33,190 nt of DNA from a virus (IMGVR_UViG_3300036716_000782:1-33190), one strand, 5' to 3'. Shown: positions 2,879 through 31,325, counted from the stretch's first letter. Numbers and translations: made by a program. The notes: generated by a model from the sequence alone, not told the origin.

Positions 2879-3715
2879 TTATCCCAGTAATTTTCCTAAA
2901 GATTTTGGTCCCATAATACCATCTGGTGTTAAGCCGTTACTTTGTTGCCAACGTTTAACATAGTTTTCTGTACCAGGACCAAAGTCACCATCTGCTGGTA
3001 AAATATTTAGTGCCCTTTGTACTTCTATAACTGTTTGTCCTTTGGAACCTCGTTTAACTGTTTCGTAACTTTTCTTAGGAACGTAATGCCCGCCGAACAC
3101 TTCTAGAGCGTGTTCATAATGTTTCTTGCGGTCTTCTAATCCTATAGTTCCACCATTAATTCTTTTTGTCATACCAACTATATCTTGATCGTCGGCATAC
3201 TTATTTAACTTATTTGTGCTCCAAAACCAACAAGCACTTTCTAAAGCACCTTTTTTGGTTTCTAAATAATTTACTACTTCAGTTATTGATTTATCAATTG
3301 ACTTACTGAATCTAGTATAGTTACTTCTACCCGTTAGTTGTATTACACCACGTCCACGGAATCTATATCCATCTCCTGACGCTGTGTCTCCGTTGTCCAT
3401 CCTATTAGCATAGATAACGTTAGCAATTTTTTCAGGATGCCTATGATACTCTGTAGCATCTCTACCTGCATTTTTAAAATACTTAGGAAATACTCTGTTA
3501 AGAGCATCCGAACTGTAGTTTAAGTTTTCTTTTAGTACTGTGAACTGTAAACTTTCATGCCCACATTGTGCTAAAAATCCTGCTACTCTATTTTCAGTAT
3601 TGATATCATACTTTGGTAACAAGGTTTTCATTATGTCGTACCATTCAGATACTTCTTTGTTTTTAGTTAAGATATTTGACAGTTGGTCTTGGGTAAAATC
3701 AAATTTAAAACTCAT
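2879..3715 (-). CDS. Endolysin, GH19 family with peptidoglycan-binding domain
   Basis: Residues 1-200 match glycoside hydrolase family 19 lysozyme/chitinase-like endolysins: a FLAQCGHES block (candidate catalytic Glu54), the following KENLNYSS block (Glu63), then FRGRGVIQLTGRSNY, and TKRINGG near 185. Residues about 215-278 form a PG_binding_1-type domain (GSKGQTVIEVQRAL ... DGDFGPGT ... DGIMGPKS). It should cut the peptidoglycan glycan strand at the end of infection. No signal peptide is visible, so it needs a holin, probably one of the small membrane genes nearby. A weak TATAAGTA box lies upstream. Confidence 0.93.
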   Translation of the reverse strand: MSFKFDFTQDQLSNILTKNKEVSEWYDIMKTLLPKYDINTENRVAGFLAQCGHESLQFTVLKENLNYSSDALNRVFPKYFKNAGRDATEYHRHPEKIANVIYANRMDNGDTASGDGYRFRGRGVIQLTGRSNYTRFSKSIDKSITEVVNYLETKKGALESACWFWSTNKLNKYADDQDIVGMTKRINGGTIGLEDRKKHYEHALEVFGGHYVPKKSYETVKRGSKGQTVIEVQRALNILPADGDFGPGTENYVKRWQQSNGLTPDGIMGPKSLGKLLG

Positions 3716-6334: not shown

Positions 6335-6946
6335 TTATCCCAACTTGCGAATTTCTATTACATTACTACTTGTGCCAGTAATAATTTCGTATACATCTTT
6401 CCAGTTTTTTGCTACAGGATAACCGTGTTCAACATTCATGTTGTGACCGTGTTCCATTACAATAGGTTTCAGTCCTGCTTTATCTCCAGCAATAGCATTT
6501 TCTACTTTATCTTCAATCCACCACATTTTACTGTTCTTGTATACTGATAGTGCTTCGTCTTTATCAGCACCTGTTCCTAAACAAGTAACTTCTGTAAACA
6601 CACCTTCGCCAAATAGTTTATCTAAGCATAGTACACGAAGTTTTTTAGCATGATAGTTGGTAGACATACTAGTAATAGCATGAAAAGTATACCCTTCATC
6701 AGCCATTTTAGTTACCCATTCAACTGCATCACGTAACGGAGGTATAAACCCCATAGCGGCACTTTCATTGAAAGTTTTAATAAGTTTTTTGACTTGTTGG
6801 CGTTCAATGCCGTAACGTATTTCCATACCGTATACGAATTCTTCGCCTTCTTGCTTCTTAAAGCCGTGTTCGGTCATATAGATATCAAAAGCATACTCCC
6901 AATTCAGTAATACACCGTCTACATCTGTCAATATTGTCTTTTTCAA
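6335..6946 (-). CDS. HAD-family phosphatase, possible deoxyribonucleotidase
   Basis: Residues 8-12 carry the HAD catalytic motif DVDGV (nucleophile Asp8, acid/base Asp10). An ITS segment follows mid-protein and an ED pair appears in WWIEDKVENAI, the family's acidic motif IV. The size and cap region resemble 5'(3')-deoxyribonucleotidase-like HAD proteins of phages, but the substrate is not visible. The start codon is TTG, preceded by AAGGA; no in-frame ATG is suitably placed. A consensus sigma70 promoter lies upstream and the gene stands alone between two plus-strand units, so it is probably expressed early. Confidence 0.85.
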   Translation of the reverse strand: MKKTILTDVDGVLLNWEYAFDIYMTEHGFKKQEGEEFVYGMEIRYGIERQQVKKLIKTFNESAAMGFIPPLRDAVEWVTKMADEGYTFHAITSMSTNYHAKKLRVLCLDKLFGEGVFTEVTCLGTGADKDEALSVYKNSKMWWIEDKVENAIAGDKAGLKPIVMEHGHNMNVEHGYPVAKNWKDVYEIITGTSSNVIEIRKLG

Positions 6947-7238: not shown

Positions 7239-8168
7239 ATGTTTAAGTCATTCTTTCAAGAAACTAGATGGTTCTTACTGGCGATCGGCATATTAACAGC
7301 CATCCTTGTAGGTAATATATTCTACTGGCAGTATGAAGAAGACCGAATAGCACGAGAAAATGCTGGTATCCCGCCTTGGATATTTAATCCAGAAGAGACT
7401 GAATTTGATATCGCTAAGAAGAAAGGACTAGAATTCAAAAAATTATCCGAAAATTTATATTCTATGACAGGTCATGTCGGGGTCGATGACTGTGAAAAAA
7501 TTGTACCAGAATTACCAAAAGATGGAACGCCATTTACTGTTATCTTAGAGAGTCCGGGTGGTTCTTTATTTGATGGTGTTTGTTTAGCGGCACATCTTAA
7601 ACAAAGAAATGTTGTAACAGTTGTCCGAGACACACCAATTATAGACGATGAGGGTAAAGTATTATATCAACCTGGTCTAATTAAAATGGAAGGGCAACCA
7701 GAAAGAAAAGAAAAATATACCATTTGTGCTTCGTCTTGTACTTTAATATTTTTAGGTGGTGACTATAGATATCTAATAGGAAATGTTTGGTTAGGAATTC
7801 ATGCTCCACGAACACCCGAAGGAGTAATATCAGGTATAAGCAAACAAGCACTTGAGTCACAAGCCTATAGAGCCAGTGCTGGTATATTGATGTTGTTAGA
7901 CTCGTTAGGCGTAACAAGTAATGACGTTAAGTATTTGTTTTTACAAGTACCATCCTCTTCGATGTATTGGTTACATCCTAGAGATTTTGAATATAAACCA
8001 CAACTAGGATTATTGGCAACTCATTATAGAGATTTTTGGGATTTCAATTTTGAGCAACCATTATATGTTGGAACTGGATCGCCAGGTAAAATTGAGCAAC
8101 CAAACAAGATACGATCAGTAGGACCGCCGGGTTCGAAACCACAATTACAAGAAATGCAGGAGAATTAA
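7239..8168 (+). CDS. Membrane-anchored ClpP-fold protease (COG3904-like)
   Basis: A signal-anchor helix (about 11-30) is followed by a ClpP/crotonase-fold domain, probably facing the periplasm. Visible motifs are ESPGGSLFDG (104-113), ICASSCTLIFLGG (candidate nucleophile Ser165 or Ser166), LGIHAPR (candidate His188) and HPRDF (candidate Asp249). The CAS-C...FLGG...LG-H order is what I recall for the COG3904 group of predicted periplasmic ClpP-like proteins. The C-terminus is Pro-rich. AAAGGA precedes the ATG. It is the first gene of a plus-strand unit, three bases before an SbmA-like transporter, so it may process peptides on the periplasmic side. Catalysis is inferred from motif order. Confidence 0.78.
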   Translation: MFKSFFQETRWFLLAIGILTAILVGNIFYWQYEEDRIARENAGIPPWIFNPEETEFDIAKKKGLEFKKLSENLYSMTGHVGVDDCEKIVPELPKDGTPFTVILESPGGSLFDGVCLAAHLKQRNVVTVVRDTPIIDDEGKVLYQPGLIKMEGQPERKEKYTICASSCTLIFLGGDYRYLIGNVWLGIHAPRTPEGVISGISKQALESQAYRASAGILMLLDSLGVTSNDVKYLFLQVPSSSMYWLHPRDFEYKPQLGLLATHYRDFWDFNFEQPLYVGTGSPGKIEQPNKIRSVGPPGSKPQLQEMQEN

Positions 8169-8171
8169 ACA

Positions 8172-9197
8172 ATGTTAAAATCATTTTTCTTAGATAAAGC
8201 AAGTGCCTTTTATGCCTGGGCGATGTTATCATTGTTACTAGGTATGACTTGGTATACAGTAGAAATACTTGTTTTTTATAATTTTTGGAATAAAGAAATT
8301 TATGACGCTATACAATCGCTCCAAGAGGATCGATTTTGGGAACTGTTTTTAGGATGGGATTGGAGTCGGATAACAGAATTTGTTATGTTGACAGAAGATA
8401 CTATGCCTTCGTTTTTAGAGATTATTGCTCTATATGTTCCTATTGCCGTTTACGCCACGTGGCAAACACAACGATATTGTTTCCATTGGCGAGAAGCAAA
8501 CACACATCACTACCTACGTAGATGGGAGAATTGTGATGCTAAGATTGAGGGTGGAAGTCAGAGGATACAAGAAGATTTAATGATATTTGGTAAAACTCTA
8601 CAAGGGTTATTTACTGGATTCTTTTCGTCTATCTTAGTATTGTTTGCTTTCCTTCCTATACTTTGGACATTATCAGAAGGCTTGCCTGTATGGAAGGGAG
8701 AAATAGTTCCTGGATTCTTAGTATGGGTAGCATTAGGTGTATCACTCGGTGGTACTTTTATATCAGTAATACTAGGTTGGAAATTACCAGGACTAGAATA
8801 CAATAATCAGAAAGTAGAAGCAAAGTTTAGAAAACAATTAGTATTCTCAGAAGATGATTTTAAACACAGAGCAACGGAAGTTTTATTTCCTATGTTCTCT
8901 TCAGTTAAGAGAAACTATTATAGACTGTTTAACTGGTATATGGGATTTGGTGTATGGCAAACGGCATTTGGATTATGTGTAGGTAACCTTGCCTTAATTG
9001 TTTTAGCACCAGCATATTTTGACCAACTAATTACACTTGGAGTATTATTCCAAGTATTAAACGCATTTGGACGGGTAGAAAGTTCAATGGGATTCTTTAT
9101 AGATCGATGGACGACCATCGTAGACTTCATGTCTGTTATTAAACGTATCCGTGAATTCAACACAGCCTTAGATACGGCAGAATTGGAGAAAAAATAA
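8172..9197 (+). CDS. SbmA/BacA-type peptide transporter
   Basis: This inner-membrane protein matches SbmA/BacA over nearly its whole length. Landmarks shared with E. coli SbmA (from memory) are IYDAIQ near 43-48, FHWRE then IEGGSQRIQED (126-135), LPGLEYNNQKVEAKFRK (205-221) followed by SEDD, NYYRLF (248-253), and near the C-terminus ITLG...FGRVE...WTT.V..MS..KR.R.F. SbmA/BacA are proton-driven dimeric importers of peptides and related compounds, without an ATPase domain. At 341 residues it is shorter than the roughly 400-residue SbmA, mainly through loss of the first N-terminal segments. AGGAG precedes the ATG. A proton-channel-like pair follows immediately. Confidence 0.92.
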   Translation: MLKSFFLDKASAFYAWAMLSLLLGMTWYTVEILVFYNFWNKEIYDAIQSLQEDRFWELFLGWDWSRITEFVMLTEDTMPSFLEIIALYVPIAVYATWQTQRYCFHWREANTHHYLRRWENCDAKIEGGSQRIQEDLMIFGKTLQGLFTGFFSSILVLFAFLPILWTLSEGLPVWKGEIVPGFLVWVALGVSLGGTFISVILGWKLPGLEYNNQKVEAKFRKQLVFSEDDFKHRATEVLFPMFSSVKRNYYRLFNWYMGFGVWQTAFGLCVGNLALIVLAPAYFDQLITLGVLFQVLNAFGRVESSMGFFIDRWTTIVDFMSVIKRIREFNTALDTAELEKK

Positions 9198-9689
9198 ATG
9201 ATTAAAAAGACTTTAGCCCGATGGTGGTTAATAACAACAGTTACTCTATGCGGAATCTATCCGTTATGGAAGTTTGGTATTTTCAGTGACATTTATCAAG
9301 CAGATGTCACTAGCATTCATTTGGTAATTTATGCTGTGTTTGTACTTGCTACTATATTAACGGGACTCGCGGCATGGCGAACAAATATAAGCGATAAGCA
9401 AACTGGACACTACAATGCTACAACAGGTAAGATAGTAGATGTATGCTGGTTCAGTTCAGAAACAATGATGGCATTAGGTCTCATTGGTACAATCGCAGGA
9501 ATGATATACTTGTTTGGAATGATCTTTGACCAAATAGATCCAAGCAATCCAGATGACTTAAAAGAAGCATTATCACATATGGCTAGAGGACTTTCAACAG
9601 CCATGTATACTACTATTTGTGGTATGATAGGTGCTTTAATTATTAAGGTTCAATTAATGAACATAGAGTTTGATAACAATAGTATATAG
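9198..9689 (+). CDS. TolQ/ExbB/MotA-like proton channel subunit
   Basis: Hydrophobic segments lie at about 9-29, 41-61, 90-109 and 128-150. The third carries LGLIGTIAGMIYLF, matching the TolQ/ExbB/MotA signature LGLIGTV.G, and the fourth carries LSTAMYTTICGMIGALI, matching the family's A..TT..GL. These proteins form proton-conducting pentamers around two copies of a TolR/ExbD/MotB partner and turn proton-motive force into mechanical work. It begins at the base after the SbmA-like stop codon and is followed two bases later by a TolR-like gene, so a complete stator is encoded. At 163 residues it is short for TolQ (about 230). Confidence 0.85.
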   Translation: MIKKTLARWWLITTVTLCGIYPLWKFGIFSDIYQADVTSIHLVIYAVFVLATILTGLAAWRTNISDKQTGHYNATTGKIVDVCWFSSETMMALGLIGTIAGMIYLFGMIFDQIDPSNPDDLKEALSHMARGLSTAMYTTICGMIGALIIKVQLMNIEFDNNSI

Positions 9690-9691
9690 AT

Positions 9692-10390
9692 ATGGATAAA
9701 CAAAGATTTAAAAGTATGACAGGATTTTTAGATATGCTATGGATCTTGTTAGCAGGGTTTGGTGCTATGTTTATTATTGCCTATTTAATGATTCAACCGC
9801 CAGCAAAAACGGCTGACATTATTAAAAAAGCAGAGTACATAGTTACTCTTGGTTGGGACAGTGAAGTTGGTGATGATATCGACCTTTGGGTTAAAAGTCC
9901 AAAAGGTATTACTGTTTCTTTTAGAAATAAGACTGGCGGTTTTATGAATCTAGAGAAGGATGATTTGGGCAGACAAAATGATACAATAATAGATGAATTT
10001 GGTAATCGAATTGTGTTAAAGATCAACAGAGAAATAATTACGTTAAGAGGTGTCCATGCTGGAGAATATGAAGTTATGATCCATGTTTATAATAGAGAAA
10101 TGTTTCAAGACAAAACTGTCGGTAGTGAAACTTATGGAAAGTTAACAAAAAGAGCAGGCCCGGTAAAATATACGGTTGAAGTTATCAAAATCAATCCTTA
10201 TAAGATTGTATATGTTCAAGAAGGAGTATACGAACATCACAAACAGGAAATAAGTATTGTAAGATTTACAGTTGACGAAGATGCAGAGTTTATAAGTTTT
10301 AATAATAAAGCATCGGATATTATACAAATGAGAGGTCGAACCTCATATGATGGGAATACAACCAGACCAGATGGGACACCAATATTATGA
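9692..10390 (+). CDS. TolR/ExbD-like stator subunit fused to DUF2135/YfaP-like domain
   Basis: A short basic N-terminus leads into one transmembrane helix (about 12-34) containing FLDMLWILL. This parallels FLDVLLVLL of TolR, so Asp14 is the likely proton-carrying residue. The periplasmic part does not look like TolR/ExbD or OmpA-type MotB. Residues about 45-125 instead have a beta-rich pattern, VTLGWDSEVGDDIDLWVKSP then a GG...L..DD...ND stretch, resembling DUF2135/YfaP-type domains. A second beta-rich region (about 145-215) follows. The domain swap suggests the stator acts on a different partner from Tol-Pal. Its stop overlaps the next start (ATGA). Confidence 0.78.
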   Translation: MDKQRFKSMTGFLDMLWILLAGFGAMFIIAYLMIQPPAKTADIIKKAEYIVTLGWDSEVGDDIDLWVKSPKGITVSFRNKTGGFMNLEKDDLGRQNDTIIDEFGNRIVLKINREIITLRGVHAGEYEVMIHVYNREMFQDKTVGSETYGKLTKRAGPVKYTVEVIKINPYKIVYVQEGVYEHHKQEISIVRFTVDEDAEFISFNNKASDIIQMRGRTSYDGNTTRPDGTPIL

Positions 10391-10902
10391 TGTTAGATAT
10401 GGAAACAACTAAAATATTTTTAACACTATCGATATTTGTATTAATGACGTTTTCGTTATTAGTTTCTATTCGTTATGGCAAAGTTAATAAATGGACTTAT
10501 ATTATGATTCCTTTTATTCTAATCCTGTCTATGACTGTTAAAACTAGTATAGAAGATATGTTAGGTTACCCAACTAATAAAGTTATATCAAAACAACAAC
10601 TTTATGTTACTCATATGGTTGGCATAAACAAAGAATGGATATATATTTGGGCTATCGATAGAGATATATCTTGGGAGCCCCGTTCATATAAAATAGTATA
10701 CACTAAAGAAGATCAACAGAAATTAGAAGAAGCCAAACAGCAACAACAAGCAGGAGTACCTGTAGGGATTATGATGGAGGCGCCAATGTTAGGTGGCGGC
10801 ACAGATCATGATACTTATTCACTTCAGGTTGAAGTTTACGATAAATTTTTAGGACACACAAAAGAAAATACAGAAACAAACAATAATGGAGCAGACGAAT
10901 GA
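10387..10902 (+). CDS. Two-helix membrane protein with soluble tail
   Basis: This 171-residue protein has two hydrophobic segments (about 8-28 and 37-55) and then a soluble domain with a KEWIYIWAIDRDISW strand region, a Gln/Glu-rich helix and a Gly/Met-rich loop. The family is not recognised. It overlaps both neighbours by four bases (ATGA junctions), so it is almost certainly made together with the stator genes and the ClpP gene and may be a structural partner. Confidence 0.82.
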   Translation: MMLDMETTKIFLTLSIFVLMTFSLLVSIRYGKVNKWTYIMIPFILILSMTVKTSIEDMLGYPTNKVISKQQLYVTHMVGINKEWIYIWAIDRDISWEPRSYKIVYTKEDQQKLEEAKQQQQAGVPVGIMMEAPMLGGGTDHDTYSLQVEVYDKFLGHTKENTETNNNGADE

Positions 10903-11477
10903 GTGATAAAAAAGTAATAACACCAGCAGATATGATACCACCTAAAGTAGAATTGCTTATGAATGGTATGTATGTGTTTATGGGAGATGTTTCTATGGAA
11001 ACTATGAGTCCAGTTGTTGATTGGATACTCGCTGAAAATATGAAAAAAACTAATAAACCAAAAGAACTAACCTTAGGGATTTGTTCTCGAGGAGGCGATT
11101 TAAATGCCTGCTTTGCCTTAGTTGATGTTATGAGGGCTTCGTCTATACCAGTTAAAACTGTAGGACTAGGAATGATTGCTTCATGCGGTTTACTATTGTT
11201 TATATCAGGTAAGAAAGGTCGTAGAGTTCTTACACCTAATACAGCAATATTGTCACATCAATATAGTTGGGGAAGTGTAGGCAAAGAACACGAACTATTT
11301 GCTCGTGTTAAGGAAATGGAACTAACCTCAGAACGTTTAATTAATCACTATAGAAAGTGTACAGGATTATCTGAAAAGAAAATTAGAGAAGTTTTACTAC
11401 CACCTCAAGATGTTTGGCTAGGTGCTGAAGAAGCCTTGGCATTGAAACTTTGTGATAAGGTAGAAAATGTCAAATAA
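10899..11477 (+). CDS. ClpP-like serine protease with full triad
   Basis: The protein follows the ClpP fold: a GDVS strand near the start, SRGGDLNACFALVDVM (63-78), GMIASCGLLL with nucleophile Ser95, AILSHQ with His120, and PQDVWLGAEEAL with Asp171. The Ser, His and Asp fall in ClpP order and approximate spacing. No leader or membrane helix is seen, so it acts in the cytoplasm. At 192 residues it matches ClpP length. In T4-like phages ClpP-fold enzymes can serve as prohead proteases, but here the gene sits in a membrane-transport cassette, away from head genes, so peptide degradation is the simpler reading. Confidence 0.88.
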   Translation: MSDKKVITPADMIPPKVELLMNGMYVFMGDVSMETMSPVVDWILAENMKKTNKPKELTLGICSRGGDLNACFALVDVMRASSIPVKTVGLGMIASCGLLLFISGKKGRRVLTPNTAILSHQYSWGSVGKEHELFARVKEMELTSERLINHYRKCTGLSEKKIREVLLPPQDVWLGAEEALALKLCDKVENVK

Positions 11478-11613
11478 CAAGAAACTTTGTTCTTGTGGGC
11501 ATGACCCAGTTGAATGTGATTGTAAAGCAGGTTGTAAATGTGGTTGTAGACGTCAGTATTTAGGAAGTCATATTAGGTGGGGCACATCTTCGTTTAGTAG
11601 GATGGTTAAATAA
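11467..11613 (+). CDS. 48-aa Cys-rich mini-protein, possible metal binder
   Basis: The ORF starts inside the end of the ClpP gene and its stop shares a base with the next ATG. Seven Cys lie within residues 8-27 (CSCGH...CDC..GCKCGC), plus a His, a density like metallothioneins or small zinc-ribbon peptides. The remainder is basic. Metal binding is inference from composition. AAGGT upstream is a modest ribosome site, but the exact fit between two genes supports translation. Confidence 0.65.
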   Translation: MSNNKKLCSCGHDPVECDCKAGCKCGCRRQYLGSHIRWGTSSFSRMVK

Positions 11614-11711
11614 TGACAAGAACTGTATTTGATAAAGTAATGACTTTTTGTTCGTATGCTTTATTATCAGCATATGGAGTCTGGGTTATCTACTATATAG
11701 TTAATTTATAG
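11613..11711 (+). CDS. 32-aa single-helix membrane peptide
   Basis: Its ATG overlaps the previous stop (TAATG). Most of the peptide is one hydrophobic, Tyr-rich helix (about 11-31). It ends the plus-strand cassette, and its last 19 bases overlap the end of the convergent 2OG oxygenase gene. Function unknown. Confidence 0.55.
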   Translation: MTRTVFDKVMTFCSYALLSAYGVWVIYYIVNL

Positions 11712-12361
11712 TATCTCATCATCAACGAATCCCTATTAAAATCTGTTAAATCTTTAATAGGGTCTACTTTATGCCAAGAATTCTCGCTAGGTTTAATACA
11801 CCAAGCGATATTAGGTATATATGGTATCGATTTAAGTGTCATGTAACCATCCATTACGTTAAATGCTTTAAATTTCTTTAATAATTTTACACCTAAATTT
11901 GAATGGCTGTCATCAATAGGACAGTATACTTGAAAGTTTAATAATAATCCTTTATGATTCATATCAGTATGTGGAAGTAAATCTATATTAATTTCTCTTA
12001 CTAATTCCGATCCACCTTTTGCTTCATCGGTAATACCAAATCTGTTAAAGATTGCTTCTTTAACTTGTACATTAGATAAAAGTATATCAACTTCTTCATG
12101 TACACTATCTGCTTTATACATATTATAAGTTATTGTGCCGGCTTTGTGTATGTTTTCTAATGTAGGTTTAAATTCGCCGTCATTATGTATTTCTATTTTT
12201 TGTATCACTTTGAGGTTATCGTTTGTTAACTTGTCATTGGCTTGTACTAATCTTTTATAAAGATCTTCTGGTAAAAAGTCGTGGATTATAAAATGATCGA
12301 ATGGTGTCTTTGACACCATTGCTTTATTAATTTTAGATAGGATATATTCTAAATGTTTCAT
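11693..12361 (-). CDS. 2OG-Fe(II) oxygenase-like protein
   Basis: This cytoplasmic protein has the layout of a 2-oxoglutarate/Fe(II) dioxygenase. H131-x-D133 (LLPHTDMNHKG) would be the first two iron ligands, His197 (NSWHKVDP) the third, and Arg210 (NRDSLMMRYY) the 2-oxoglutarate-binding residue. The N-terminal FDHFIIHDFLP motif is typical of prolyl-hydroxylase-like members. Such genes are frequent in T4-like marine phages, with mostly unknown substrates. A late-type box lies ten bases upstream and no Shine-Dalgarno is seen. Confidence 0.78.
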   Translation of the reverse strand: MKHLEYILSKINKAMVSKTPFDHFIIHDFLPEDLYKRLVQANDKLTNDNLKVIQKIEIHNDGEFKPTLENIHKAGTITYNMYKADSVHEEVDILLSNVQVKEAIFNRFGITDEAKGGSELVREINIDLLPHTDMNHKGLLLNFQVYCPIDDSHSNLGVKLLKKFKAFNVMDGYMTLKSIPYIPNIAWCIKPSENSWHKVDPIKDLTDFNRDSLMMRYYKLTI

Positions 12362-17199: not shown

Positions 17200-17577
17200 T
17201 TAAAAAGGTATGTCATCAACAAATTCTTCAGGCTCTGGAGGTGTTAGTAGTTCTAATGTTATATGCTTTTCAACTTCTAACTCATATGCTTCAGCCATTG
17301 CTTTAATATGAGGATGTTTTTCTTCTATTTCTTTATTACGTTCTAAGTCTGCTGGAATACCTAATACTTTTTCTATTCTTTGTAGTCGGGTATTAACTTC
17401 ATCTATTTTATTATGACCTTCATCTTCTTCTACATCATCAATACCTAGATTTTTATAAAAACTGTCAGTGCCTAAGTCCATGCCAGATATAGATGTATAT
17501 CCTTCATCTTCTTTTTTGTAACTTTCAAACATATCATCAAATCTTATAGTTAGTTGTTCTTCGTCTTCTGGATTCAT
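17200..17577 (-). CDS. Acidic protein with SSB-like C-terminal tip
   Basis: This 125-residue protein is acidic throughout, with a coiled-coil-like centre (KIDEVNTRLQRIEKVLG). It ends in EEFVDDIPF, which closely matches the C-terminal tip of bacterial single-stranded DNA-binding protein (DDDIPF), the docking site for many repair and replication proteins. No OB-fold is present, so it is not an SSB itself. It could recruit or decoy SSB partners. It overlaps the radical SAM gene by four bases. Confidence 0.7.
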   Translation of the reverse strand: MNPEDEEQLTIRFDDMFESYKKEDEGYTSISGMDLGTDSFYKNLGIDDVEEDEGHNKIDEVNTRLQRIEKVLGIPADLERNKEIEEKHPHIKAMAEAYELEVEKHITLELLTPPEPEEFVDDIPF

Positions 17578-18857
17578 AATTCAATTCTCTCTTCTTTTTT
17601 AGATCGTAACTCTGTAGCAATCGATCCACAGTTATCAATACAGATGTTCAGCCTAGGTTTTTCTTGATCATCTGTTTTATTATTCCAACTATCATGTAAA
17701 TCCTTTTGAAAGAATTTATGATGTAGGATATCTTCTAATGTATGATGACTTGTATAGTTCCAGTTATCATCATACTTGTTAACATAATAGTTTTGGTATT
17801 CATTGTCTGGTTGGCCTTGTTCGTTTGCTGAATCTTTATTCCAAGGTCTACCAAAATATGCTGTCATATGACAGCAAACATGAACTCGCCCGTCCCATTC
17901 TATTTGTAATTTACCTTCGTTACCCCATTGACACCAAATGCTACAATTATTAGCATAGTCGTCCATGTCGTTGTTAAACTTCTTAACAACAATTTCTTTT
18001 GCTTTTACTTCCATTTCTTTGTATGCTTCTGTAGTGTGACTATGTTCAGCACCTTCAGACATATCTTTTTTCTTTACTTTGCTAAAGCCTGAGTGTTCAT
18101 AACTTGTTTCTTTTTCTTCTACAGTCATTACACCTGTTCTGATTGCTTCTTCTCTTAATGAATTAGAAATGTGTTCAGCCATTCTACTACGTCTTATATC
18201 AAATCTAGAGAAGCCATATTCTTTTGCTAGTTTTTTAGCATCTTCTATTTGATGTTTGTTGTGTTCAAATTCTATAAACTGCCATACTGCTACGCCACCG
18301 GCATCCATAAACCATTTGGCTCTTTCTAAAACCGCTTCGTAAGGCACCCCACGACGGTACATTTGATGTGTTTTATCGTCAGTTCCTTCTAGAGCAAATA
18401 TAACTTCTGAGTTATTAGGATTGTATCTTTCACTAGCAATTTTTCCTAATTCAGTCCAAAATGCTTTATCCCTAACACCACCATTTGTACTAATCCATAA
18501 GTCAGTACGCCTGTTACGATTGTTTGCTTTACGTTGTTCTTTTTGAGAATCACTTACATCTGCTATGTGATGAAGAATTGGTATCAAGTCTGGGTGCATT
18601 ATACAATCACCAAACGTACCATTAAAGTCTAGTGTTTTAAGTCCGCCCATTACAGTAGGAGTAAAGATATTTTTAACTGTTGACAAAGGCATATTTCCTT
18701 TGTGACCTACTTGAATAGCAGGGTTGATATCGCCTTCTTTAAGTCCAAGCCTTGGGACATCAGATGCTACACGGCGTAGACATCCGGGGCAAAAACTGTT
18801 ACAGTTGGCTGTAATGTCTATTGTAATTCTTCGTAGTAGTTTAGGATTTAAAAACAT
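17574..18857 (-). CDS. Radical SAM enzyme
   Basis: Cys19, Cys23 and Cys26 (CNSFCPGC) form the C-x3-C-x2-C motif that binds the 4Fe-4S cluster for S-adenosylmethionine cleavage. TLDFNGTFGDCIMHP is where the GGEP-like segment normally sits. A C-terminal Cys group (NCSIWCQWG, VCCHM, NICIDNCG) may bind an auxiliary cluster as in SPASM/twitch enzymes. At 427 residues it is a full-length enzyme. It shares one base with the Asp-hydroxylase-like gene upstream. The substrate, perhaps a peptide, is unknown. Confidence 0.88.
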   Translation of the reverse strand: MFLNPKLLRRITIDITANCNSFCPGCLRRVASDVPRLGLKEGDINPAIQVGHKGNMPLSTVKNIFTPTVMGGLKTLDFNGTFGDCIMHPDLIPILHHIADVSDSQKEQRKANNRNRRTDLWISTNGGVRDKAFWTELGKIASERYNPNNSEVIFALEGTDDKTHQMYRRGVPYEAVLERAKWFMDAGGVAVWQFIEFEHNKHQIEDAKKLAKEYGFSRFDIRRSRMAEHISNSLREEAIRTGVMTVEEKETSYEHSGFSKVKKKDMSEGAEHSHTTEAYKEMEVKAKEIVVKKFNNDMDDYANNCSIWCQWGNEGKLQIEWDGRVHVCCHMTAYFGRPWNKDSANEQGQPDNEYQNYYVNKYDDNWNYTSHHTLEDILHHKFFQKDLHDSWNNKTDDQEKPRLNICIDNCGSIATELRSKKEERIEL

Positions 18858-30062: not shown

Positions 30063-31325
30063 TTACTGTTCAATTAGTTCGTGATAATGAGGGAAATGTT
30101 TAGAGAATGAAATATTTCTTCTGTTCTCTATCATATCATACTCATTTTTTACTTCTTTTTTGTATTCTATATTTACTTCGCTCCCTACTATACCTTTTAA
30201 GGTCTTCATAGAGTCTAAGAAATGTGATTTATTTTCCCAAATATCGGGCATTTCGTTAATATAATCTATTTGTTCTTGTACCACATCAGCATATTTAGGA
30301 TCTAAACATAATACTGACATCCACCTAGGGGATTGTACCCAATTATGAAACATCATTATTTCTTTGTTGTAATTAAATTTATCAACTTTATCATACAAGT
30401 ATACTAGAAACTCTTTAAAATAAGGTACACTCAAATTATTATGGGCAGGAGCAAATCCTATTATTAAGTTTTCTATTTTTTTAGATTCTTCAAAAAACAT
30501 ATCTACGCCCTTATCCCATTTATTAAAATCTAATCCCCATCTTATAATTTCACTTTGCTTACCCAATGCCTCGCCAGACAATTGCATTTCGTAACGAATG
30601 TTTGGTGTTTTCTTTACAAGTTCTAAAAATCTTTTATATTTACGTTCTGGAAAGTTTACACTAGTAGTAACCATTAATATTATCTTTTGATTGTATCGAC
30701 ATGACTCATTAACATTAACCATAAACTCCTCAATGAATTTATATATGTGATCGGAAAAGAACGGCTCACCGCCTAGTATACTAAACATTATGAGTCTTTT
30801 CTTCTTAAGTGATTTGTCCCAATACTCGTTTAATAGTTCTAATACTTTATCAAACAACTTGTCTTCTGTATCAGGATATCGTACTCCTACTTCCTTTTGC
30901 CAACGATTGCTAGAGGCAGGTCCGCAATAAGCACAGGCCATGTTACATTTATTTGTTAGTTCTAGTTCGAGACATTGAACAAGATCTTCGTCTATATTTA
31001 GGTTTTGATTTATTATAAAATCGTTATCCCTACTAGACATAGTTCTCATACTAACACCACTTGTTCTTTCAGAATCCCAACAGTCAGCACAGTCTTGACT
31101 TTGTATCCCAGACCTTAAATCTTTTTTTAGTTTTTCTACTACAGGATGTTTTAGAAAGAAATCTATTCCTTGTTCCTCTAATATATCTAAATCAAAATTT
31201 AAAGTTTTGATTTGTTCTGGGGTATGAACATTTTTACAACACCATTTAACTGATTTGTTAGGCAAGGATATAATAAGGTCGAGCCAGGGTCTAAAACACA
31301 TTGTATCTGATATAGGATTGGGCAT
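30063..31325 (-). CDS. Twitch-type radical SAM protein
   Basis: Cys127, Cys131 and Cys134 (CNMACAYC) form the radical SAM cluster motif, and MFSILGGEPFFSDHI supplies the GGE motif. The N-terminus has extra Cys (MCFRPW, WCC, CADCWDS) that may bind a second cluster, as in twitch/SPASM enzymes whose auxiliary Cys lie in an unusual place. The CFRPW opening is common in phage radical SAM proteins. It lies 18 bases from an A-type Fe-S carrier gene and just before the fibre genes. The substrate is unknown. Confidence 0.87.
   Translation of the reverse strand: MPNPISDTMCFRPWLDLIISLPNKSVKWCCKNVHTPEQIKTLNFDLDILEEQGIDFFLKHPVVEKLKKDLRSGIQSQDCADCWDSERTSGVSMRTMSSRDNDFIINQNLNIDEDLVQCLELELTNKCNMACAYCGPASSNRWQKEVGVRYPDTEDKLFDKVLELLNEYWDKSLKKKRLIMFSILGGEPFFSDHIYKFIEEFMVNVNESCRYNQKIILMVTTSVNFPERKYKRFLELVKKTPNIRYEMQLSGEALGKQSEIIRWGLDFNKWDKGVDMFFEESKKIENLIIGFAPAHNNLSVPYFKEFLVYLYDKVDKFNYNKEIMMFHNWVQSPRWMSVLCLDPKYADVVQEQIDYINEMPDIWENKSHFLDSMKTLKGIVGSEVNIEYKKEVKNEYDMIENRRNISFSKHFPHYHELIEQ

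Follow-up and report, generated by a model that had tools for sequence, protein, structure and literature searches.

A recurrent phage gene cassette that places a TolQ-TolR-P3 triad beside a membrane-anchored ClpP-fold protease and an SbmA-type transporter

Identification of the cassette

We analysed the virus record IMGVR_UViG_3300036716_000782:1-33190, a stretch of 33,190 bases referred to here in its entirety as the window, and studied a gene cassette located at 7239-11711. The results showed that the supported unit consists of six genes, SPP-SbmA-TolQ-TolR-P3-ClpP, with TolQ-TolR-P3 as its three-gene core, and that SPP and its SbmA form a second unit, which associates with this core. SPP is a predicted membrane-anchored ClpP-fold protease, SbmA a transporter of the SbmA/BacA type, TolQ and TolR resemble proton-motor subunits, P3 carries two transmembrane (TM) helices, and ClpP is cytoplasmic. 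The ratio of non-synonymous to synonymous substitution rates (dN/dS) was 0.06-0.31 for each gene from SPP to ClpP, and all six are under purifying selection. Phage-type genes elsewhere in the window included a T4-type clamp loader, PhoH, DnaJ and a weak match to T4 gp9/10.

Recurrence of the cassette across phages

Scans of IMG/VR yielded 13, 72 and 80 loci, which together with loci of named phages and the window gave 106 distinct loci. The first 10 related contigs showed the six-gene order again, with proteins 40-90% identical; two of these contigs were truncated or had no recognised ClpP. Among the 106 loci, TolQ was found in 70, TolR in 70 and P3 in 71, lying together; TolQ-TolR-P3 is the conserved core and an obligate triad, in marine phages as well as in Rhizobium/Sinorhizobium phages and on bacterial chromosomes. 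SPP was present in 28 loci, 26 of them with enough flanking sequence, and the whole triad accompanied it in 25 of these 26. The initial annotation had proposed one eight-gene cassette of protease, peptide transporter, proton motor and second protease, to be checked by gene-order conservation. In this comparison the genes did co-occur elsewhere, and the grouping is real, recurrent and under selection, although its description is corrected to a TolQ-TolR-P3 core and a joining SPP-SbmA unit. The sole SPP locus outside the pattern (L103:3600-9380) contained P3, a 96-amino-acid gene, SPP and SbmA with no TolQ or TolR beside them, and its SPP-SbmA pair directly followed genes resembling virion structural genes.

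At least four gene orders were observed, namely SPP-SbmA-TolQ-TolR-P3-ClpP, TolQ-TolR-P3-x-SPP-SbmA, ClpP-SPP-SbmA-TolQ-TolR-P3, and ClpP upstream of TolQ-TolR-P3-x-SPP-SbmA. Between P3 and SPP, loci L096-L111 carried a conserved gene of some 90-100 amino acids with no Pfam match. For genome-level counts we used 46 contigs selected for carrying the triad or SbmA, and the counts are accordingly not unbiased rates. SPP occurred only with the window type of SbmA, in 15 of 15 such contigs versus 0 of 31 others. Most phage loci had the triad with neither protease nor importer beside it, and most triad-bearing phages lacked SPP. The triad-only contigs G016-G019, G022, G023 and G029 carried SbmA elsewhere, 0.8-42 kb away, and in the L054 type an SbmA with a full glutamate ladder (described below) lay 0.8 kb from the triad. 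No SbmA was found in G020 and G026, both longer than 100 kb, nor in the rhizobial-type contigs G031 and G032. Among contigs of at least 100 kb, SbmA was present in 6 of the 9 selected by the triad, and the triad in all 5 selected by SbmA.

At the nucleotide level, the cassette region matched no named phage. At the protein level, the TolR-like subunit was found in 27 Rhizobium/Sinorhizobium phage records; five such phages that we examined encoded TolQ-like, TolR-like and P3-like proteins in a row, all unannotated. Isolated Rhizobium phages with the triad include 16-3, RL2RES, P10VF and the RHph series; in 16-3 the three genes are p038, p040 and p042.

We then compared the histories of the two units. 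SPP-bearing loci occupied four places in the tree of the concatenated triad (Fitch 4 changes, against a mean of 24 after label shuffling), and the SPP-linked SbmAs formed one clade with a support of 1.0. The SbmAs of the window-type loci and of L096-L102 grouped together (support 1.0), and their triads were far apart. Because one SPP-linked SbmA clade sits with four triad lineages, the triad was exchanged and the partnership of SPP-SbmA with a triad was kept, a pattern that would be difficult to account for if the two units had no function in common.

The TolQ-TolR-P3 triad

The TolQ/MotA/ExbB-type proton-channel subunit (9198-9689; this and all other cassette genes on the plus strand) has 163 amino acids and matched Pfam MotA_ExbB at 5.8e-8 (33 bits, cut-off 22.9). 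The same family was matched by 26 of 26 TolQ-like members, which places them in the channel family. The TolR/ExbD-type subunit (9692-10390) had an invariant aspartate, Asp14, in 29 aligned sequences and a single TM helix in 70 of 70, so that by its sequence it qualifies as a candidate proton-motor subunit B. Its remaining domain carried W/DxDL motifs and weakly resembled DUF2135 (3 of 29 members, best 3e-4), and this beta-domain is predicted to be periplasmic.

P3 (10387-10902) matched no Pfam family. Its AlphaFold2 model (pLDDT 82.4) showed two TM helices followed by a beta-beta-beta-alpha-beta-beta domain, which had no fold match in the PDB; the only significant structural matches were two predicted viral proteins, one of them bearing the name of a transmembrane protein from a Rhizobium phage (3.7e-6). 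The short loop between the helices was positively charged in 54 of 56 sequences and the N-terminus tended to be negative. Given the loop charge and the positive-inside rule, the C-terminal domain is probably periplasmic. A match of the window P3 to the PHROG family SieB was marginal (0.0066).

We compared the triad with known motors. Like TolQR, ExbBD and MotAB, which are 5:2 motors, it pairs a MotA_ExbB-family protein with a one-helix protein bearing an invariant aspartate; unlike them, it has a DUF2135-like beta-domain on the TolR-like subunit and, as its third protein, the two-helix P3 in place of TolA, TonB or Pal. No TolA/TonB transducer, TolB/Pal or TonB-dependent receptor was found among the cassette genes, which sets the cassette apart from Tol-Pal and Ton systems, and an assignment of P3 to TolA/TonB or to any solved fold was rejected for lack of a PDB match. 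By profile, the nearest solved relatives of the TolQ-like subunit were ZorA proteins (E 1e-3), but it has no ZorA tail, and no ZorB or ZorC/D/E was recognised in the cassette. Membership of Zorya was therefore rejected, the scores being far under the ZorA cut-offs. The operons of vWA force-transducer motors (PMC12204202) likewise combine a TolQR-like motor with a partner other than TolA, but those partners have a TolA/TonB-like topology ending in vWA, whereas P3 has no vWA domain.

SPP and its SbmA-type transporter

SPP (7239-8168) had no Pfam match. Its AlphaFold2 model (pLDDT 79.3) matched ClpP in Foldseek (E 6e-7, probability 1.00), and the serine and histidine required of a ClpP/crotonase-fold protease, S165 and H188, were invariant. 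In an alignment of 23 sequences the invariant features were C85, C115, C163, C167, CAS165xC, GIH188 and ESPGG. The mean net charge of 27 sequences was +1.3 before the TM segment and -1.3 after it. From the model and alignment, SPP is predicted to be an N-terminally anchored ClpP-fold serine protease with its domain facing the periplasm; the topology signals and invariant cysteines are the reason for placing the SPP and P3 domains there. Compared with ClpP and head maturation proteases, SPP shares the ClpP fold but is membrane-anchored and Cys-rich. No SPP was matched among named phages or in six triad-bearing bacterial genomes, and full-length SPP was found in 0 of 385 alphaproteobacterial genomes, 5 of which gave weak partial matches. 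Trypsin-like, probably periplasmic proteases were observed near the triad in two Rhizobium phages (p036 in 16-3 and EVB79_071 in locus L003), a possible parallel to SPP.

The window SbmA (8172-9197) matched the Pfam domain SbmA_BacA at E 6.2e-79 (266 bits, cut-off 24). Its match to the E. coli SbmA structure (PDB 7p34, 1.7e-54) began at residue 82 of the E. coli protein, from which it follows that the N-terminal TM0 region is missing. It was nearer to the 'putative transporter' PRK12369 (5e-90) than to PRK11098 SbmA. It has been documented that the glutamate ladder of SbmA comprises E193, E203, E269, E276, E287 and E378, with E203 as the proposed first proton site (PMC13316013). In the window SbmA, E203 is replaced by Q and E378 by D, leaving the ladder incomplete. 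The 27 SPP-linked SbmAs had Q (25), N (1) or E (1) at position 203 and D (24) or E (3) at position 378, and each of the 35 unlinked phage SbmAs had E at all six positions. The cassette SbmA thus shares a common fold family with SbmA/BacA (SLiPT) proteins over about 320 residues and is acidic at five of the six ladder positions, but differs from them in the absent TM0, the two ladder substitutions and an operon that also encodes a protease and a motor. These substitutions fit, but do not prove, an altered energy coupling of a transporter that stands beside a separate proton motor.

SbmA was very rare in named phages, each SbmA query matching 4 of 50,697 phage records. Stand-alone SbmAs with a full ladder and about 38% identity to the window SbmA were observed in many marine phages of IMG/VR (L113-L164).

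ClpP, gene layout and neighbourhood

The cytoplasmic ClpP (10899-11477) matched the Pfam Clp protease family at 4.1e-26, and inspection showed Ser, His and Asp where the motifs place them; no ATPase of its own was found within the cassette. In other contigs ClpP stood at a different place, which makes it a looser member of the set. It also resembled phage head-protease PHROGs. A T4-like gp23 and an S77 prohead protease were each present in 12 of 32 contigs, the SPP-cassette contigs G003 and G011 among them; S77 adjoined gp23 in these two and in the triad-only contig G016, and the cassette ClpP of G011 was far from gp23. For T4-like phages with a cassette, a role of ClpP as the head maturation protease was rejected, as a separate S77 stands beside gp23 there.

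Eight plus-strand open reading frames (ORFs) with close or overlapping junctions were present, as originally described. SPP is separated from SbmA by 3 bp, SbmA from TolQ by 0 bp and TolQ from TolR by 2 bp; TolR and P3, and likewise P3 and ClpP, overlap by 4 bp. The last two ORFs are a Cys-rich 48-amino-acid ORF, Cys48 (11467-11613), a possible accessory gene that overlaps ClpP by 11 bp and TM32 by 1 bp, and the uncertain TM32 (11613-11711), a one-helix ORF of 32 amino acids. Cys48 had relatives in one close group only (L013, L014 and L015; 48-50% identity, directly after ClpP) and TM32 had no homologue in the fetched loci. For this reason the supported unit is limited to six genes: the two small ORFs exist as annotated and are weakly supported, not established members of the cassette. 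The opposite-strand genes reported on both flanks were also found, at 6335-6946 and 11693-12361, both minus; TM32 overlaps the latter by 19 bases.

A promoter scan of the cassette gave 34 promoter-like sites versus 25.9 expected and was uninformative. A perfect TTGACA-17-TATAAT promoter-like site was observed on the minus strand of the window (7007-6979), upstream of an NT5C-like minus-strand gene. The window also encodes two radical-SAM-like proteins, at 17577-18857 and 30066-31325, both on the minus strand. In L017, L032, L039 and L096-L102, an acyl carrier protein, an IscA-type Fe-S assembly protein, a J-domain-like protein (HscB-like by eye) and a RyR-domain protein were encoded a few genes upstream of TolQ. 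Directly upstream of TolQ in L096-L102 was a gene encoding a protein of some 276 amino acids that is probably secreted and has no Pfam match.

Chromosomal counterparts in bacteria

A profile scan of bacterial genome contigs yielded 547 relatives, and the 80 listed were mostly from Beta- and Gammaproteobacteria. The TolR-like subunit was present in 59 of 385 Alphaproteobacteria (15%) and 42 of 369 Gammaproteobacteria (11%) sampled. The chromosomal triads (L166-L244) had a pyrroloquinoline quinone (PQQ)-dependent alcohol dehydrogenase and Ped-type ABC genes as neighbours in several genomes, and a YkuD-type enzyme with a VWA/FHA protein in others. ORFs of high-GC genomes were called by a codon-position model, and P3 or TolR was lost in some loci. 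In the triad tree, 54 bacterial triads formed one clade inside the phage diversity; as the bacterial loci had been chosen by similarity to the phage profile, we draw no conclusion on the direction of transfer.

Discussion

Our study demonstrated that a protease, a transporter and a motor-like triad recur together in phages. We tentatively propose, at somewhat less than an even chance, that they form one inner-membrane machine, powered by the proton motive force (PMF), which would cut polypeptides in the periplasm and import the pieces. The TolQ-like and TolR-like proteins would form a 5:2-type proton motor, and P3 and the TolR-like beta-domain would carry its motion into the periplasm. SPP would cut polypeptides at the periplasmic face, where the motor or P3 probably helps to present or unfold the substrate. 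The adjacent SbmA-type transporter, with its altered proton ladder, would bring the peptides into the cell, where ClpP, aided by a host Clp ATPase, and host peptidases may complete their breakdown. The phage could gain by amino-acid salvage or by clearing envelope proteins in a nutrient-poor host. We infer complex formation, motor activity, transport direction, substrates and benefit, as well as the steps from motor to protease and from motor to transporter. A bolder form of the proposal, which we consider unlikely, is that the TolQR-like rotary motor and P3 replace the Clp ATPase as unfoldase or feeder of SPP, there being no ATP in the periplasm, and that SbmA has in part given up its own proton coupling, which the motor supplies instead.

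Several observations weigh against a single machine. ClpP is missing from the cassettes of G003 and G006-G010. The triad is seen by itself more often than within the cassette, and it has chromosomal copies with no SPP or SbmA beside them, which argues that the motor has some independent job. A different substrate or a different coupling may be all that lies behind the E203Q change.

The main rival is superinfection exclusion or envelope shielding, in which the motor, P3 and SPP would destroy or block incoming phage or bacteriocin proteins in the periplasm; in a variant, the extra TolQR-like complex would compete with the host Tol/Ton machinery. In either form SbmA would clear peptide debris or toxins. 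The envelope location of the cassette suits this explanation, as do the SieB match of P3 and the fact that the cassette type differs between related phages. ZorAB is an example of a PMF motor used in phage defence (PMC11890865), and TolQR is known to be targeted by phages for entry (PMC10424213). However, the SieB match is weak, no PADLOC family scored meaningfully for SPP, SbmA, the TolR-like protein, P3 or ClpP, exclusion has no obvious need of a peptide importer or a cytoplasmic ClpP, and the triad exists on chromosomes too, as an ordinary operon. We regard exclusion as possible but somewhat unlikely.

The frequency of the TolR-like subunit in alpha- and gammaproteobacterial genomes, the PQQ/Ped neighbours of chromosomal triads and the absence of SPP from most triad phages would all agree with a generic envelope function of the triad, as on chromosomes, for example envelope or periplasm upkeep during infection. 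SPP-SbmA would then be a separate peptide-salvage pair that shares only operon and timing. We doubt this account, since shared timing poorly explains why one SPP-SbmA clade stands beside four triad lineages in changing order. Envelope remodelling or lysis, with the motor and SPP acting late in infection to weaken the envelope, seems very improbable: a GH19/peptidoglycan-binding endolysin-like gene lies about 3.5 kb from the cassette (2879-3715), but on the opposite strand, the recurrent neighbours of the cassette included no recognised spanin, holin or endolysin, and an importer does not suit lysis. Accessory regions are mosaic and several cassette genes occur singly elsewhere, yet a chance pile-up is scarcely credible given purifying selection and an arrangement whose order and adjacency persist across 40-90% identity and have arisen anew time and again.

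Each part of the cassette is of a known kind or similar to one, and as a set they lack the features that define Tol-Pal, Ton and Zorya. No description of the cassette, or of phage-encoded SbmA or TolQR, was found in the open-access full-text literature searched, and the suggestion that the grouping was undescribed held to that extent. If the proposed machine is real, phages would reprogramme the host periplasm with a proton-driven motor of their own to break down and import protein, a take-over likewise undescribed in the literature searched. The analysis also brings out an unnamed TolQ-TolR-P3 motor operon, with no assigned function, in about 1 in 7-9 of the sampled alpha- and gammaproteobacterial genomes. 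Isolated Rhizobium phages make the triad testable at the bench, and the E203Q change that occurs naturally in SbmA allows ideas on the energy source of this transporter family to be tested directly.

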